Positions 3,065-16,493 of a stretch of 38,772 nucleotides of DNA are shown in pieces. Every line of letters begins with the position of its first letter. Within the stretch, counting starts at the first letter, position 1. The DNA lies in the IMG/VR virus record IMGVR_UViG_3300010412_000037, positions 1 to 38,772 of that record; one strand, given 5' to 3'. This DNA comes from a virus. Under the pieces are notes generated by a model. It had not been told where the DNA came from and did no database searches. It saw only the letters and a list, made by a program, of their open reading frames with translations. A program made the translations under genes and the position numbers.

Positions 3065-3162
3065 TCCTCAACGCACTCCTGCTTGCTACCACCGCCATGG
3101 TGGTCCGACACGTGTACATCCGCCTCACCACCCAGAAAGGAGCCGATACCAATGCGCATTAG
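3061..3162 (+). CDS. Possible 33-residue single-span membrane peptide
   Basis: A short frame starts at ATG 3061 inside an ATGA junction with the preceding stop and ends at TAG 3160-3162, 10 bases inside the next gene. The peptide begins with a hydrophobic segment (MILNALLLATTAMVV) followed by a basic stretch (RHVYIRL), as in a small inner-membrane protein or signal anchor. The junctions on both sides fit the packing style of this phage. It also carries the strong ribosome site of the ATPase gene within its end, so it could simply be a coupling leader. Confidence 0.35.
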   Translation: MILNALLLATTAMVVRHVYIRLTTQKGADTNAH

Positions 3163-4177
3163 TCAAGCCGGGCAGGTTCTCGCTGCCGCCTTGAAAGCCG
3201 ACGTCCCCGTCATGTTTTGGGGCCCCCCGGGGGTAGGCAAGTCGGATCTCACGCACCAGGTCGCCAACGACCACTCGCTTGACATCAGCGACGTCCGGAT
3301 CAGCCAGCTCGAATCCGTGGATTTGCGCGGCATCCCGCAGGTACGGGAGGGGGTTACGAAATGGAACCCGCCGGATTTCCTTCCGCGGGATCCTGACAGT
3401 CGAGGCATCCTGTTCCTCGACGAAATCAACAGCGGCCAGACCAGCACCATGGCTGCTGCATACCAGCTTGTGCTCGACCGTCGCCTCGGCAGCTACCAGC
3501 TCCCGAAAGGCTGGCGTGTCGTTGCCGCCGGCAACCGGATCCAGGACCGGGCAATCGTGAACGCGATGCCCGCGCCGCTGCGCAACAGGTTCATCCACAT
3601 CGAAGTCGAGACGCATCTCGACGACTGGTGTGCATGGGCCCTGCGCAACGAGATCCACTCGGACGTGATCGCGTTCCTGCGCCAGGAGTCGAACCTGCTC
3701 AATGAGTTCGATGTCGGCCAGAGCGAGACACGCCAGCGGGAAGCCAGCCAGAAGCTCAAGGACGCGAAAGCGTTCGCCACACCACGCTCGTGGGCGTTCC
3801 TGTCGAAGATGCTGCATTCGGGCATCCCGGCAGGCGCGGAGTACGAGACCTACGGCTCAGTCGTGGGTGAAGGTGTCGCGGCGCGCTTCATCGCGTACAT
3901 GAAGTACTCGAGCAAGATGCCGAACCTCGACGCCCTGCTCATGAACCCGAAGCAGACAGAGGTGCCGAAGGAACCCGGCACGCTCTACGCCACGGCAGCA
4001 GCCCTGGCTACCAAGATCACGGAGAGCAACCTGGATCGCGCGGTGCTGTACATGGACCGCATGCCCCCGGAGTTCGGCGTGATGTGCATGTCGGACGCGG
4101 TCACTCGCAACCCGAAGGTCTGCAACACGAAGGCCTTCACCGAGTGGTCGACGCGCAACTCCGACGTGATCCTGTAA
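3152..4177 (+). CDS. MoxR-type AAA+ ATPase
   Basis: The gene encodes 341 residues from ATG 3152, which sits 9 bases after the strong site AGAAAGGAG (3134-3142). Walker A is GPPGVGKS (residues 24-31) and Walker B is ILFLDEIN. A sensor-1-like GNRIQD and an RNRF segment (PLRNRFIHIEV) follow. This is the core layout of MoxR-family AAA+ ATPases. MoxR proteins normally work as ATP-driven chaperones with a VWA-domain partner, often in metal-cofactor insertion or complex assembly. The VWA-like gene at 5028-6164 follows one gene later, so a functional pair is very likely. The substrate in the phage cycle is unknown. The N- and C-terminal parts contain no extra recognisable domain. Confidence 0.85.
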   Translation: MRISQAGQVLAAALKADVPVMFWGPPGVGKSDLTHQVANDHSLDISDVRISQLESVDLRGIPQVREGVTKWNPPDFLPRDPDSRGILFLDEINSGQTSTMAAAYQLVLDRRLGSYQLPKGWRVVAAGNRIQDRAIVNAMPAPLRNRFIHIEVETHLDDWCAWALRNEIHSDVIAFLRQESNLLNEFDVGQSETRQREASQKLKDAKAFATPRSWAFLSKMLHSGIPAGAEYETYGSVVGEGVAARFIAYMKYSSKMPNLDALLMNPKQTEVPKEPGTLYATAAALATKITESNLDRAVLYMDRMPPEFGVMCMSDAVTRNPKVCNTKAFTEWSTRNSDVIL

Positions 4178-4181
4178 GAAC

Positions 4182-4267
4182 ATGGTGGAGATACTCGTAG
4201 CACGAGTGTAGGAGGAAAAGCCTTGGTCCAGGACCTCGAATCCTGGAGAGCCGGAGGCTTCCGCCGG
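4182..4267 (+). promoter_or_regulatory. Structured leader with three candidate hairpins
   Basis: The 200-base gap between the ATPase and the next gene contains several inverted repeats. Hairpin 1 is 4191-4198 with 4202-4209 (8 pairs, one G-U, loop AGC). Hairpin 2 is 4228-4233 with 4241-4246 (6 pairs, loop 4234-4240). A third, weaker pairing is 4252-4255 with 4260-4263. None is followed by a U run, so they are not intrinsic terminators. A 9-codon frame (ATG 4182 to TAG 4211) spans hairpin 1, and its stop overlaps a perfect AGGAGG (4210-4215). The arrangement looks like a translational leader, but that is inference. I saw no convincing sigma-70 promoter here. Confidence 0.35.
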
Positions 4268-4300
4268 GTCGGTAATGTCCTCATATGGCTGGCACGGTAA
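4223..4300 (+). CDS. Possible 25-residue leader peptide
   Basis: A TTG at 4223 sits 7 bases after a perfect AGGAGG (4210-4215), one of the best ribosome sites in the window. It opens a 25-codon frame that ends at TAA 4298-4300. The peptide ends in a hydrophobic run (VGNVLIWLAR). It overlaps hairpin 2 and ends shortly before the Nmad5-like gene. It may be a regulatory upstream ORF rather than a functional protein. A longer in-frame N-terminal extension of the downstream gene from ATG 4285 overlaps its last codons but looks low-complexity. Confidence 0.3.
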   Translation: MVQDLESWRAGGFRRVGNVLIWLAR

Positions 4301-4377
4301 CTAGTACTCCGAATTTGAGGCACAAGCAGCGTAGCGAACTGCCTCCACCACCCTCTCACTCTCATACAGCGGATCCC

Positions 4378-5031
4378 ATGGCCACAGTCGTCCTAACTAA
4401 AGGCAGACAAGACACCATTCGCTACAACCTCGTCAAGAACTACGAAAACAAGGCGACCGAGCTACTCGAGCGAATCGACGCCGTTGCCGGTAACCTGGCA
4501 CGCTACACCTACAACCTGCTCGTGCCTGCCGACCTTCAGAAGAAGCTCAAGGAGATTCCGAAGGACTACCTGATCTTCACCGAGACGCTCAAGATTCGGT
4601 TCAAGGTCGAAGGACAGTTGTCCCGGGACGTCGTGATCCAGCTGGCGGACAAACTGCCGGTAGCGGCCAAGCACACGTTCGGGGTCCAGATGCACTACAC
4701 CCCTGAAGTGGTTGCAGAAGCGGAGCCCGGCTCTGTCTTGGCCACTCATGGCGGCGAGGCGATACGCCTGCTCAGGGAAGCCTACGCGCTGAAACAGGAG
4801 TCCGACGCTCTCTCCGACCAGGTCAAGGACCTGTTCAAGAAAGTGTCCACGCTACAGCAGCTGCACAAGATCTTCCCCACGGTGCTCGAGTATGTCGACG
4901 ACGGCTCGCGCGCAATGTTCAACCGCAAGGTCGAGCGCACCAAGGTCGATCTATCCGACGCCCTGGACGACGAGCTGCGCGTTGCTCTCGTCAAGGCCAA
5001 CATCCAAAACTTTGCCAAGGCAACCAAATGA
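4378..5031 (+). CDS. Nmad5-like protein (nucleotide-modification-associated family)
   Basis: The gene encodes 217 residues from ATG 4378. The first residues (LTKGRQDTIRYNLVKNYENK) match the 'LTk-x-R-x-x-I' opening of the phage Nmad5 family. The last third has helical coiled segments and a segment reading KVSTLQQLHKIFPTVLEYV, which matches the family's 'T-x-x-x-L-x-x-x-(W/F)P-x-V' end pattern. Nmad domains were predicted from gene neighbourhoods to take part in phage DNA base modification; no biochemical activity is established. A start at ATG 4285 would add 31 low-complexity residues and is less likely. The gene sits between the MoxR ATPase and its VWA partner and overlaps the latter by ATGA, suggesting a shared job. 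Recognition is by eye. Confidence 0.55.
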   Translation: MATVVLTKGRQDTIRYNLVKNYENKATELLERIDAVAGNLARYTYNLLVPADLQKKLKEIPKDYLIFTETLKIRFKVEGQLSRDVVIQLADKLPVAAKHTFGVQMHYTPEVVAEAEPGSVLATHGGEAIRLLREAYALKQESDALSDQVKDLFKKVSTLQQLHKIFPTVLEYVDDGSRAMFNRKVERTKVDLSDALDDELRVALVKANIQNFAKATK

Positions 5032-6164
5032 CCTTCGAGATCCGCAAAGTTGACCCCATCACGAAGGCTCGTGCAGAGATCGTGATGGCTGACCCGTTCT
5101 TCGGCACGCTGCTCTTGCGCATGCGTTTCGTCGAAGACCCAACAGCGCCGACTGCATGGTGTAACGGCGTGACCATCGGCTACAACCCGAAGTTCATCAA
5201 GACGCTCAACAGCGAGGAACTGAAGGGCCTACTGGTTCACGAAATCATGCACCCGGCGCTCCTTCACCACATCCGCCGCGGCAACCGCGAACACCGTCGG
5301 TGGAACATGGCGGCGGACTACGCCCTCAACCCGCTGATCAGCAAGCGCTATCGCTTGCCGCAAGGAGCGCTCGATGACCCGCGATTCCATGACAAGGCTG
5401 CTGATGAAATTTACAACCTTCTGCCTGAGCTTCCTCCTGGTGATGGCGGTAGTTCTGACCCTGGTGGATGCGGTGAAGTCCGAGATAACCCAAGCGATGG
5501 ACAAGCGCAGGACGCAGCTAACCGACAAGCTGAATCAGAGTGGAAACAGAACCTTGCCGCCGCAGCCCACAACGCCAAAATGCGAGGGCGAATGCCCGCC
5601 GAGCTCGAAAAGCTCGTCGCAGACGCGCTGACACCAGTCGTTGACTGGAAGAGCGCACTTCGTCGATTCGCAACGGAACGGGTCAATGTTGAAGACAGTT
5701 GGAACAAAGCTCAGCGAAGGTTCATTGCAGACGGTCTGTATCTGCCTGGTAAGTACAGCGAGACCGTTGGCCCCATTGCTGTCTTTCGCGATACATCTGG
5801 GTCTATCTATTGCGATCCGAATGCTCTCCAGCAATTCAACGGAGAAATCGAGTCCATCGCAGTCGACGTCCGACCCAGCAAAGTGATCATCATCGACTGC
5901 GATGCTGACGTCCAGCAGGTGATGGAGATCGAGCCCGGCGAAGAGATGCCGGCCGGGCTGACCGCAGCCAAAGGCGGCGGTGGCACCAGCTTCGTGCCGC
6001 CATTCGAGTACATCGAGAAGGAAGGCATCGAGCCGAAGTGCATCATCTACCTGACCGATGGCTACGGCACCTTTCCGGACCCAGACAGTGTCCACTACCC
6101 CACCATGTGGATCATGACCACCGACGTTGAACCGCCCTTCGGCGAATGCATAAGGATCTCCTGA
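5028..6164 (+). CDS. VWA-like protein with HExxH metallopeptidase-like domain (DUF2201 type)
   Basis: The gene encodes 378 residues and starts in an ATGA overlap. The N-terminal domain has HEIMH (H71, E72, H75) within LLVHEIMHPALLHHIRRG, a zinc-binding metallopeptidase-like helix typical of DUF2201 proteins. A Gly/Ser/Pro-rich linker (about 136-160) separates it from the C-terminal VWA-like domain. That domain carries a MIDAS-type DTSGS motif (residues 255-259) after a hydrophobic strand and a later IYLTDG. Proteins of this architecture are the usual partners of MoxR AAA+ ATPases. The pair probably forms an ATP-driven machine acting on a protein complex. Whether the HExxH site cleaves or only binds metal cannot be told. 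The gene ends in a TGATG junction with the next one. Confidence 0.8.
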   Translation: MTFEIRKVDPITKARAEIVMADPFFGTLLLRMRFVEDPTAPTAWCNGVTIGYNPKFIKTLNSEELKGLLVHEIMHPALLHHIRRGNREHRRWNMAADYALNPLISKRYRLPQGALDDPRFHDKAADEIYNLLPELPPGDGGSSDPGGCGEVRDNPSDGQAQDAANRQAESEWKQNLAAAAHNAKMRGRMPAELEKLVADALTPVVDWKSALRRFATERVNVEDSWNKAQRRFIADGLYLPGKYSETVGPIAVFRDTSGSIYCDPNALQQFNGEIESIAVDVRPSKVIIIDCDADVQQVMEIEPGEEMPAGLTAAKGGGGTSFVPPFEYIEKEGIEPKCIIYLTDGYGTFPDPDSVHYPTMWIMTTDVEPPFGECIRIS

Positions 6165-7084
6165 TGAACCCGAAACGCTGGCACGAGATGCGCGAGCTAT
6201 GGGATACGCGCAAGCGGAACTTCCGCCGGCTGATCTTCAACGCCCACCATCGCCGCTGGAACTGCGCTGCGTTCATGTTCATGCCATCCGTGGTTCCCAC
6301 GGACGCGCACAAGCGCGCGTTCGACATCTTCTGGCGCGGCTCGCAGAACCTGGATCCGGACAAACGCACGATCATCGCTACGGTCTTTCCAAACGGCAGC
6401 TTCATCTTCCCGTTGCAGTACAGGAACGTCAGCTCGTCGATAAACCACCTGCTTGGGTGGCTGACCGACGGCAAGCTCGCGATCAAGATCAACCGAAGCG
6501 TCATGACGAACGCTGACCACATCCTGTTCCCGGCGCACACGTACTTCTGGAAACCAGAAGGCGAGTCGGTGTACATAGGTCCGGACGGGAAGGAAGTCCC
6601 GTTCGAAGAAGGGCGCGCGGCAATGCGGGACAAGACCAAATGGCACCATGTGAAGGGCGGGTTCATCATGAACGCGGATGGGACCATCACGAGCTTTCAG
6701 CCCATCCTCCACCGCAAGTGGATCCCGGAAAAGAAGAAGGAGTACCGCCAGCGCCGGAGGCAGTACCTGTTGCAGGTCCTCTCCCGGGTCAAGCTGGGAG
6801 CGTACGACGAGCTGATCGAGACCCTGGGCAAAGCGGGCTGGTCAACAACATTCACGCAGGCATACACAGAGGCATGCAAAGCCCGCAGCGAGCTCGAAGC
6901 TCACTTGTCCGAGATGGACCCGGAGGATCCCAAGACGTCCGACCTGTTTGCCACCGCCGCCGCAGTGCGATCCTGGCGGCGGGCAGTCAAGGACCGGGAG
7001 AGGCTGGAGACTGGGGTCCGTACCGTGATGAGTACGAGCGCAGAAAAACTCCGTCAGGACACGGGAGCTGTCATATACTCGTAG
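6164..7084 (+). CDS. Hypothetical protein in the MoxR/VWA module
   Basis: The gene encodes 306 residues from ATG 6164 (TGATG junction), with AAGGAT about 7 bases upstream; an ATG at 6146 would extend it by six residues inside the previous gene. The N-terminal half is rich in aromatic residues and alternates strands (RTIIATVFPNGSFIFPLQYR, then NADHILFPAHTYFWKP). The C-terminal half is basic and helical (KKKEYRQRRRQYLLQVLSRV). I do not recognise it. The one-base overlap links it to the MoxR/VWA genes, so it may serve the same process. A 29-base gap follows before the nuclease gene. Confidence 0.65.
   Translation: MNPKRWHEMRELWDTRKRNFRRLIFNAHHRRWNCAAFMFMPSVVPTDAHKRAFDIFWRGSQNLDPDKRTIIATVFPNGSFIFPLQYRNVSSSINHLLGWLTDGKLAIKINRSVMTNADHILFPAHTYFWKPEGESVYIGPDGKEVPFEEGRAAMRDKTKWHHVKGGFIMNADGTITSFQPILHRKWIPEKKKEYRQRRRQYLLQVLSRVKLGAYDELIETLGKAGWSTTFTQAYTEACKARSELEAHLSEMDPEDPKTSDLFATAAAVRSWRRAVKDRERLETGVRTVMSTSAEKLRQDTGAVIYS
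7074..7079 (+). promoter_or_regulatory. Weak candidate -10 element
   Basis: TATACT at 7074-7079 resembles a sigma-70 -10 box and lies 35 bases before the nuclease start, across the end of the preceding gene. The hexamer 17 bases upstream (7051-7056, CCGTCA) is a poor -35 match. It is one of few TATA-like boxes near a gene gap in this GC-rich block. Very tentative. Confidence 0.15.
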
Positions 7085-14284: not shown

Positions 14285-14833
14285 ATGCACTTGATGATCG
14301 ACCTAGAAACGCTCGGCACAGACCCACGCTCGGTGATACTCAGCTTGGGTGCTGTGTTGTATGCCGACGACGACATCACTCGCACGTTCTACGTCGAGCT
14401 GGATGCCCAGGAACAGCTGGACCACTATCGGCGGCATGCGAACATGTCTACCGTCGCGTGGTGGGTCGATCAAGACCACCGGGCCAAGGCCGTGCTCAGG
14501 CCGCGCGCACCGGAATCACTCGTGTCGGCAATGACCGGACTCGAGAACATGCTGACACGCAACGAATGGGCAGAGGTCCTGGTGTGGTCGAACGGAGCCT
14601 CGTTCGACATTCCGATCCTGCAGACTGCATTCCAGGACACCGGGATCAAGTGCCCATGGCAGTACTACAACGAGCGGTGCTTCAGGACGATGAAGACGCT
14701 GTTCAAGAACATCAAGGCGCCAACGATGGATGGGCTGACGAAAGACTCCGTCAAGCACAACGCGTTGAATGACGCGCTCAACCAGACTCTTCACCTCAGG
14801 AAGCTCCTCGAATGCGCCGCCGCCATTCAGTAA
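14285..14833 (+). CDS. 3'-5' exonuclease, DnaQ-like (DEDDh, Rv2179c/DUF5051 type)
   Basis: The gene encodes 182 residues from ATG 14285, 6 bases after GGAG (14275-14278). Exo I is DLET (D6, E8). Exo II is SNGASFDIPIL with D108. Exo III is HNALND (H158, D163), of the DEDDh type. The layout, including MSTVAWWVDQDHRAKAV after the first domain, matches the phage exonucleases related to mycobacterial Rv2179c. It would degrade DNA or RNA from 3' ends and may take part in nucleotide scavenging or repair. The end overlaps the kinase gene by 22 bases. Confidence 0.85.
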   Translation: MHLMIDLETLGTDPRSVILSLGAVLYADDDITRTFYVELDAQEQLDHYRRHANMSTVAWWVDQDHRAKAVLRPRAPESLVSAMTGLENMLTRNEWAEVLVWSNGASFDIPILQTAFQDTGIKCPWQYYNERCFRTMKTLFKNIKAPTMDGLTKDSVKHNALNDALNQTLHLRKLLECAAAIQ

Positions 14834-15354
14834 TCGGTTTCTCCGGAGCTGCGCGAAGTGGCAAAGACACCTGCGCCGAAATGGCGCTTTCGGTCCTGGG
14901 AGGTTATCGCTACAGTTTTGCGGACCCGATCAGGTCGATGCTCAAAGCCGGATTCGGCATCGACTTTACCGACCCATACTGGGCGGAACGGAAAGAAGAG
15001 CCAATCTCGGCGTTTGGTGGCAAAAGCCCGCGTCAAATGATGCAGTGGCTCGGCACCGAATGGGGCCGCAACATGATCGACCCGAGCATCTGGTTGACGC
15101 TAGGCACGGCCAAGTTCCTGGAAGACGGCCCGGGCATGGTGATCGCCGACGTTCGGTTCGAGAACGAAGCACAGTGGGTCAGGAGGCTTGGCCTCCTGGT
15201 CCACGTAGTGCGACCAGGCGCGACACCTGTGGCGTCACATCCGTCGGAGAACGGAGTGGCGTATGATCCGGCGGACCGCACGCTCATAAACGACGGGACG
15301 CTGCAGGACCTGCAACAAGCGCTGCACAAACTCTTAGGTGTCGACGAAGCCTGA
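14812..15354 (+). CDS. Deoxynucleoside monophosphate kinase (T4 gp1-like)
   Basis: The gene encodes 180 residues with AGGAAG 8 bases before ATG 14812. A P-loop GAARSGKDT is at residues 12-20. FADPIRSMLKAGFGI and the segment SPRQMMQWLGTEWGRNMIDP are typical of phage dNMP kinases. DVRFENEA (113-120) is the conserved nucleotide-binding segment. The enzyme phosphorylates dNMPs to dNDPs, feeding the polymerase. In phages with modified bases the same family supplies the modified nucleotide; there is no direct evidence for that here. Confidence 0.88.
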   Translation: MRRRHSVIGFSGAARSGKDTCAEMALSVLGGYRYSFADPIRSMLKAGFGIDFTDPYWAERKEEPISAFGGKSPRQMMQWLGTEWGRNMIDPSIWLTLGTAKFLEDGPGMVIADVRFENEAQWVRRLGLLVHVVRPGATPVASHPSENGVAYDPADRTLINDGTLQDLQQALHKLLGVDEA

Positions 15355-15772
15355 AAACCAATTCATCTCCGGTATCCACGCCCACCTCAAGGACGTGTAT
15401 CACGAGAAGATGAATAACCCCTTTCGGTCCGGTACCGCCGACGTGTGGTACTCCGGACTGAATGGCGACGTCTGGATCGAATACAAGTACATTCCCCTGA
15501 TCCCCAAATCCGCTCATATCAGACCAGCGATTTCCGAACGACAACGCGCGTGGCTGCTGGACCGATTCACCGAAGGCCGTACCGTGTATGTCGTCGTAGG
15601 CTGTCCTGAAGGAGGCGTCGTAATTGCTCCTCAGCACTTCGGGTCGGCTTACGGCCCCGAGGAGTTTCGCCAGCGGCTGCTTTCCCGTAAACAACTCGCA
15701 GAGTGGATCCGCGAGCACACAGGACAAAGCCCTTGCCGTACCCGCAGTCAATCTTTGTTACAGCGAAAGTAG
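15338..15772 (+). CDS. PD-(D/E)XK nuclease (VRR-NUC/resolvase-like)
   Basis: The gene encodes 144 residues from GTG 15338, which overlaps the kinase end by 17 bases. The motif region reads NPFRSGTADVWYSG, then GDVWIEYKY: D35 followed by E48 and K50, the PD-(D/E)XK core, with the 'G-x-x-D-x-W' approach typical of small phage nucleases. It could act as a Holliday-junction or flap endonuclease, or as a nicking enzyme. The C-terminal 20 residues (after about 125) are basic and overlap the next small frame. Confidence 0.65.
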   Translation: MSTKPENQFISGIHAHLKDVYHEKMNNPFRSGTADVWYSGLNGDVWIEYKYIPLIPKSAHIRPAISERQRAWLLDRFTEGRTVYVVVGCPEGGVVIAPQHFGSAYGPEEFRQRLLSRKQLAEWIREHTGQSPCRTRSQSLLQRK

Positions 15773-15885
15773 CGCACTCCGTCTATCGCATCGTCCTGTC
15801 AGCTGTGCTGACTGTTTCGATCTTGACGGAAGCGTATCTCTTCATCCGTGGTCGCGCCAAGCAGAAGAAGGTGATCACACGATGA
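15733..15885 (+). CDS. Possible 50-residue single-span membrane protein
   Basis: A frame begins at TTG 15733, 8 bases after AGGAC, and ends in an ATGA junction with the gene product 88-like gene. The protein has one hydrophobic span (IVLSAVLTVSILTEAYLF, about residues 20-37) and a basic tail (RGRAKQKKVI). GTG 15703 is an alternative start. The junction and the hydrophobic profile support it; function unknown. Confidence 0.45.
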   Translation: MPYPQSIFVTAKVAHSVYRIVLSAVLTVSILTEAYLFIRGRAKQKKVITR

Positions 15886-16493
15886 CCAAGGATGAAGCTC
15901 TCAAGATATGCGGGACTCTGTCGCGTCCTTCGAAGATGCCGTGTCCTGCCTACAGCATTCCGGCGACGCTCTGCGTCACCGGCTCGAAGCTCCGAGAGAA
16001 GAAAGGCACCGTATGCAGCAAGTGCTACGCGATGAAAGGGCGGTATCTGTTCGACAACGTAGTGCAGGCGATGAACCAACGCGCCTCCGGACTGAAGAGC
16101 CCGAAGTGGGCGCAAGGAATGGTGACGCTCATCGGCGCGACACGCTCCCCGTGGTTCCGGTGGCACGACTCTGGCGATCTACAAGGTCTACAGCATTTGC
16201 TGGACATCGTGTTCATCGCGGATCGGCTGCCGGAAAAACGGTTCTGGTTGCCCACTCGGGAGGTTGGGCTCGTGTCACAGTATCTGGCGGTCTTCGGTTC
16301 GTTCCCATCCAACCTTACAGTCCGAGTGTCAAGCCCACTCGTAAACGGCGACCCAATACCAGGGTACGCCCTGACGTCTACGGTGGTGACGGAGAATCCT
16401 ACCTGTCCAGCCTCCTTGAATGGCAACCGATGCGGGGAATGTCGAATGTGCTGGGATCCTAACGTCAAGAATGTCTCGTACCTGGAGGGGTAA
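15882..16493 (+). CDS. Gene product 88-like cysteine-rich protein
   Basis: The gene encodes 203 residues with AAGAAGGTGA upstream of ATG 15882. The sequence follows the GP88 family of phages: LSRPSKMPCPAYSIPA, CSKCYAMKGRYLFDN, WFRWHDSGDLQ, FWLPTRE, and a C-terminal CGECRMCWD. Nine cysteines (10, 21, 31, 45, 48, 175, 184, 187, 190) suggest one or two metal or Fe-S sites. The biochemical role of the family is not known. It ends in a one-base TAATG overlap with the next gene. Confidence 0.75.
   Translation: MTKDEALKICGTLSRPSKMPCPAYSIPATLCVTGSKLREKKGTVCSKCYAMKGRYLFDNVVQAMNQRASGLKSPKWAQGMVTLIGATRSPWFRWHDSGDLQGLQHLLDIVFIADRLPEKRFWLPTREVGLVSQYLAVFGSFPSNLTVRVSSPLVNGDPIPGYALTSTVVTENPTCPASLNGNRCGECRMCWDPNVKNVSYLEG

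Follow-up and report, generated by a model that had tools for sequence, protein, structure and literature searches.

A recurrent phage operon joining a MoxR-type ATPase, an Nmad5-related protein and a metallopeptidase-VWA protein: a candidate protein-remodelling machine

ATP-driven remodelling of proteins is proposed here as the function of a four-gene operon at 3152–7084 of IMGVR_UViG_3300010412_000037, an IMG/VR virus record of 38,772 bases that is probably a fragment; its whole length is called the window below. As confirmed by translation, the four genes lie on the plus strand in the order A, a MoxR-type AAA+ ATPase; N (P0002), a diverged relative of the Nmad5 family; V (P0003), which joins a DUF2201 metallopeptidase domain to a VWA domain; and Q (P0004), probably a distant member of a family encoded downstream of V. 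The first three belong to a module that recurs in phages and, in a variant form, on plasmids. With a probability of about one half, the operon encodes an early-expressed, ATP-driven machine that remodels and probably cuts proteins, in which N, or a DUF3150-related protein (D) found elsewhere in the same slot, is a non-enzymatic adaptor.

Recurrence of the module is apparent from both ends of the search. Relatives of V gave 80 loci, among which A is present in 72, N in 50, D in 47, and N or D in 71. In the reverse test, loci were fetched by N sequence alone, with two N subfamilies as queries; since both had been derived from V loci, the outcome, in which 118 of 127 viral loci carry V and 98 carry A, ties these subfamilies, not all Nmad5 proteins, to V. 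The nine loci lacking V have a contig end within ~1.1 kb upstream of N. Gene orders in this test included A-D-V-N-Q (45 loci) and A-N-V (44 loci), and the distance between N and V, which share a strand, is at most 1.2 kb throughout. V is present in 52 of 55 N clusters formed at 70% identity, N is separated from V by no more than 20 bases in 65 of the 75 cases where it directly precedes V, and the module genes share one strand in all 208 loci. Such repeated co-occurrence, more than chance would give, together with the Nmad5 match of the N family described below, bears out the original prediction, made from the letters of the window, that a MoxR-VWA pair and an Nmad5-like gene form one module. 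Beyond these loci, a scan of genome contigs yielded a single distant locus, in a metagenome-assembled genome of Lentisphaeria.

D is a family of 286 amino acids (aa) related to DUF3150; its member in locus L007 lies just over the curated cut-off of that family (25.2 versus 24.9 bits), and two others match more weakly. The slot between A and V is filled by either D or N, with both together in one of the 80 loci, which fits a pair of interchangeable adaptors. A comparison of the two families by hhalign (probability 1%) gives no support to homology between them. None of the window genes is recognised by the D profile, and there N occupies the slot. Plasmids, some of them conjugative or mobilizable, carry A-D-V without N. 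Operons of this kind, encoding a MoxR ATPase, a DUF3150-like protein and a VWA-metallopeptidase, are seen on Burkholderiales plasmids (L232, 4954–8176; L233, 4886–8230), and the one in L233 directly adjoins type IV secretion genes.

The catalytic residues of A and V are near-invariant and N has none, a distribution that counts in favour of a machine with a non-enzymatic adaptor. V matches the putative metallopeptidase family DUF2201_N (PF13203, E 1e-44) and DUF2201/VWA (E 8e-23) in Pfam, with the motifs HEIMH (H71, E72, H75) and DTSGS (255–259). Across 166 V proteins, conservation rounds to 100% at H71, E72, H75 and D97 and amounts to 99–100% at H80 and at the metal ion-dependent adhesion site (MIDAS) residues D255, S257, S259, T320 and D344. 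The patterns used to fetch the first 80 V loci included HExxH, while loci from N queries or phage records were fetched without that requirement, and the motif holds across all of them. V is composed of an N-terminal HExxH metallopeptidase domain, in which the zinc site is intact, and a C-terminal VWA domain with a MIDAS. Its AlphaFold2 model (predicted local distance difference test, pLDDT, 91) matched VWA folds in a fold search, including the MIDAS domain of midasin and NorD in the NorQD complex. A sub-threshold Pfam match to SprT-like DNA-protein-crosslink protease (E 0.003) is retained as an idea and not claimed as kinship. In PHROG_1314 and in many RefSeq phage records, homologues of V are named 'HNH endonuclease', an example being N4 gp25 (NC_008720, 11164–12306). 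No HNH domain was found in P0003 by Pfam, which reports the DUF2201 metallopeptidase and VWA instead, and for this protein family the label is probably a propagated misannotation.

A carries a Walker A motif, GPPGVGKS, at residues 24–31 and matches AAA_5 (Pfam, E 1e-7) and PHROG_1297 (E 9e-98). Among 140 ATPases, K30 (Walker A), D90, N128 (sensor), R146 and R212 are conserved in 97–100%, the roles of the two arginines being assigned by position only. The marks of an AAA+ protein are all present: both Walker motifs, sensor 1 and, as judged by position, an arginine finger. The nearest solved relatives of A are the AAA modules of midasin (E 1e-21), and this kinship, along with the likeness of the V fold to the midasin MIDAS domain and NorD, was counted for a remodelling function. 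When all four proteins were compared with NCBIfam, weak AAA matches to A were the sole result.

The relation of N to Nmad5, which the original prediction had assigned by likeness, stands through relatives and not through P0002 itself. P0002 has no significant match in Pfam, PF18757 being absent even at E up to 1, and as a single query it found no relatives in phage records (INPHARED) or in the IMG/VR pattern scan. A counterpart in locus L006 was found at E 5e-9 among the genes of the 80 V-fetched loci, and an iterated N profile gathered 66 genes. Pfam recognises Nmad5 in 22 of 34 N-family proteins, at E 1.3e-8 in the strongest case, and four of ten scanned singly exceed its curated cut-off. 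As a check on circularity, the profile was rebuilt without P0002 and without its L006 relative; this independent profile recovered P0002 at E 8.5e-11 and aligned with a canonical Nmad5 profile, made from 11 proteins, at an hhalign probability of 98%. The N profile also matches M6 gp056, a canonical Nmad5 protein (E 2.7e-14), while P0002 compared directly with canonical Nmad5 scores weakly (HMMER E 0.026; hhalign 23%). The AlphaFold2 model of P0002 (pLDDT 87) has two long helices and a beta insertion; a fold search gave nothing significant in the PDB and reached proteins named Nmad5 in a viral library. Because the relation runs through intermediate sequences and the predicted fold, P0002 is regarded as a distant relative of Nmad5, not as a scoring member. 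Conserved positions in 156 N proteins comprise a V/R at the N-terminus, a small number of hydrophobic residues and a TL..L..WP motif, with no catalytic-looking set of residues among them, and N itself is probably not an enzyme of DNA modification. In eleven loci (L014, L015, L022, L034–L037, L041, L046, L057 and L058), two N paralogues flank V, one of ~220 aa before it and one of ~270–330 aa after it.

From these features a working mechanism can be outlined, with the NorQD complex as the example of how a MoxR-type ring acts on a VWA partner (PMC13036017). The ring formed by A would dock on the VWA/MIDAS domain of V, by analogy with NorQ on NorD and the midasin ring on its MIDAS domain. ATP hydrolysis would then pull V, or a client held by V, and the attached zinc-protease domain of V would cut the client or open for cutting. 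N, or D in the same slot elsewhere, may be the adaptor or scaffold that selects the client, at a guess a protein of phage or host that is bound to DNA in the early phase. The timing is suggested by the gene neighbourhood: the module sits in a replication cluster, on the strand opposite to the virion genes. In the window its neighbours, likewise on the plus strand, are a DUF5906-type fragment on one side and, on the other, genes for a PD-(D/E)XK nuclease, DNA polymerase A and an SNF2 helicase, and the window genes that match virion families are on the minus strand. Genes for DNA polymerase A, DUF5906/VapE-like proteins and the PD-(D/E)XK nuclease recur beside the module in other loci. Farther downstream in the replication cluster of the window lie a deoxynucleotide monophosphate kinase gene (14812–15354, PF21448) and a gene for a GP88-family protein (15624–16493, PF17338).

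Vibrio phage ICP2 (L245, NC_015158, genes 36–42) presents a comparable arrangement with a different MoxR-VWA-type pair: the Nmad5 gene gp36 lies ~1.7 kb from CobT gp41 and CobS gp42, in a region just before the replication genes. The nearness of CobS/CobT to Nmad5 in this replication region was counted for the proposed machine. Several points weigh on the other side. Peptidase activity of V is putative, being read from conserved residues only, and no experiment on any member of the module was found. MoxR-metallopeptidase-VWA pairs without N occur in N4, phage G, GAP32 and S-TIM61, so that N is dispensable for the A-V core, and Nmad5 occurs without a DUF2201 protein in M6, HK542 and JLBYU60. 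The derivation of both N query subfamilies from V loci belongs with these points. A broader claim is made tentatively and is, on balance, doubtful: that Nmad5 is an adaptor or client-presenting subunit of MoxR-VWA machines, not a DNA-modification domain, and that phage A-N/D-V is a new kind of protease powered by ATP, whose zinc peptidase is driven by a MoxR ring by way of the VWA domain while the phage replicates its DNA or takes over the host. If it is true, it also bears on the Nmad5 variants linked to the Tmn defence system.

Other functions have to be weighed against the proposed adaptor-guided machine. A role in virion assembly, in which the ATPase and VWA-peptidase would serve head or tail proteins as a chaperone and a processing protease, is unlikely. 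It has been proposed for jumbo phages (PMC7824862), where the MoxR-VWA pair of the archaeal virus ATV is cited as acting in tail development; the record of the PA5oct ATPase bears an electrospray ionization tandem mass spectrometry (ESI-MS/MS) note; and the pair of GAP32 and S-TIM61 is surrounded by virion genes, with Hsp70 or Hsp20 genes close by, which keeps an assembly role alive. However, the window and many relatives in its clade keep the module by replication genes, with the virion genes of the window on the other strand, and plasmids, which make no virion, retain A-D-V. The plasmid operons, in turn, are in keeping with a machine for counter-defence or host takeover that uses N as its targeting subunit to remove or cleave proteins of the host, as are the accessory positions of Nmad5 genes in lambdoid, P22-like and Dhillonvirus phages and the escape of a Dhillonvirus from the Tmn defence system by Nmad5 mutation (PMC11846954). 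In that study cloning of the Nmad5 gene failed, apparently through toxicity. For the A-N-V form, however, there is no direct evidence of this kind, and a comparison of the module with known defence proteins gave a single weak match, to the ATPase. Counter-defence is held to be somewhat less likely than virion assembly.

The original prediction had suggested that the machine acts on, or assembles, an enzyme of DNA or nucleotide modification, and the evidence did not support it. M6 gp056 stands in a thymidine hypermodification cassette with genes for a 5-hydroxymethyluracil (hmU)-DNA kinase, a thymidylate synthase-type hydroxymethylase and an amino acid:DNA transferase (PMC9476957), a setting shared by canonical Nmad5 of M6-like phages, and it is from this setting, and from the deoxynucleotide monophosphate kinase gene downstream in the window, that a machine assembling or activating a modifying enzyme, with N as part of the pathway, could be argued. 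Yet the hmU-DNA kinase (PF18723), thymidylate synthase/hydroxymethylase (PF00303) and amino acid:DNA transferase (PF18724) were each found in 0 of 45 records that carry A, N and V, the window included; these records span ~31–70 kb each and are mostly fragments, and M6 (for PF18723 and PF18724) and nine control genomes (for PF00303) served as positive controls. In M6, neither A nor V is present within the 50 kb that were examined, and DUF2201_N is absent from the whole genome. The kinase and metallopeptidase sets are also disjoint among 11 isolate phages with Nmad5: three carry the hmU kinase, three others DUF2201_N, and none both. The lack of conserved catalytic residues in N speaks against modification as well. 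As the negatives cover three enzyme families in mostly fragmentary records, with other modification routes not searched, some room is left, and an assembly role in modification is retained as quite improbable, below both of the functions weighed above.

The MoxR and metallopeptidase-VWA pair has already been described in jumbo phages (PMC7824862) and corresponds to N4 gp24/gp25, so the earlier remark that no characterised phage system of this kind is known needs correcting. N4 and its Schitoviridae relatives hold the homologous ATPase and DUF2201 metallopeptidase-VWA genes as one block, but no N or D gene was found between or beside the N4 pair; in the Vibrio Schitoviridae 1.097.O, VCO139 and pVco-5, Nmad5 is present several kb from V. 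Group 2.2 jumbo phages share the two-gene architecture, and A and V have homologues in the pair of GAP32, whose region showed no N or D and whose surroundings, as noted, are virion genes. NorQ/NorD and midasin resemble the module in their conserved AAA+ ring residues and MIDAS as well as in fold, whereas V adds the N-terminal HExxH peptidase domain and the client differs. The Nmad5 prototype of M6 (PF18757) matches the N profile, whereas the carriers showed none of the hypermodification genes sought and the fixed partners of N there are A and V. In the plasmid operons of Cupriavidus and Paraburkholderia, A and V are homologous and in the same order, V sharing ~34–40% identity with P0003 in two regions that were read, but the middle gene is D in place of N.

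A fixed link of the A-V pair with Nmad5- and DUF3150-related proteins was not found in the open-access literature searched, and the association appears to be undescribed. The A-V gene set is widespread in phages and plasmids, often with a fixed third partner, whereas the labels now in use call V an 'HNH endonuclease' or 'hypothetical' in many cases, and the name of Nmad5 points to DNA modification. The present results suggest that N serves the machine and that the catalogue name may mislead. Should the third partner prove to be an adaptor, annotations would change by the hundred, and the part of Nmad5 in Tmn sensing could be tested as a question of a protein machine and not of DNA modification.

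Table 1. Genes and spacer of the operon in the window
Feature	Position	Strand	Remarks
A, MoxR-type AAA+ ATPase, homologue of phage N4 gp24	3152–4177	+	341 aa; PHROG_1297, AAA_5
Spacer between A and N	4178–4377	+	200 bases; no detectable special structure
N, diverged Nmad5-family protein	4378–5031	+	217 aa; modelled as a helical hairpin that has a beta insertion
V, DUF2201 HExxH metallopeptidase and VWA protein, homologue of phage N4 gp25	5028–6164	+	378 aa
Q, probable distant member of the downstream family	6164–7084	+	306 aa

The layout of the operon (Table 1) includes an ATGA overlap of N and V at 5028 and a TGATG overlap of V and Q at 6162–6166; like the gene coordinates, the Walker A motif and the HEIMH and DTSGS motifs, both overlaps were found by translation just as first reported. 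The spacer between A and N had been taken for a structured leader, an idea that was rejected: it folds no better than its shuffled versions (z −0.36, with 76 of 200 shuffles folding equally well), and it shows neither an Rfam match nor anything resembling a promoter or terminator. Starting at an in-frame ATG at 4285, N would be longer by 31 residues (4285–4377) and the spacer might be shorter. The start at 4378 is favoured by the family alignment.

Q is the last gene of the operon. In 27 of the 80 loci a member of the Q family, of ~260–300 aa, is encoded downstream of V, mostly behind N, and many of the members are shortened by contig ends or split reading frames. P0004 has no significant Pfam match, and as a single query it gave one chance-level match and no relatives in IMG/VR and INPHARED. 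Against the hidden Markov model of the Q family it scores weakly (E 0.0028; hhalign 76% alone), rising to an hhalign probability of 93% when it is joined with the L006 and L008 proteins encoded at the corresponding position, as in both loci a gene likewise stands between V and that of the PD-(D/E)XK nuclease. By sequence and position, P0004 is a probable member of the family. Downstream of the module, 12 loci have a small gene for a CsrA-family regulator (for example L025, 8425–8610; Pfam CsrA, E 8e-12). In L077 (6871–7356) and ten other loci, the gene after the module has no Pfam match and resembles, by eye, a peptidase of the Ntn-hydrolase type (proteasome/HslV-like).

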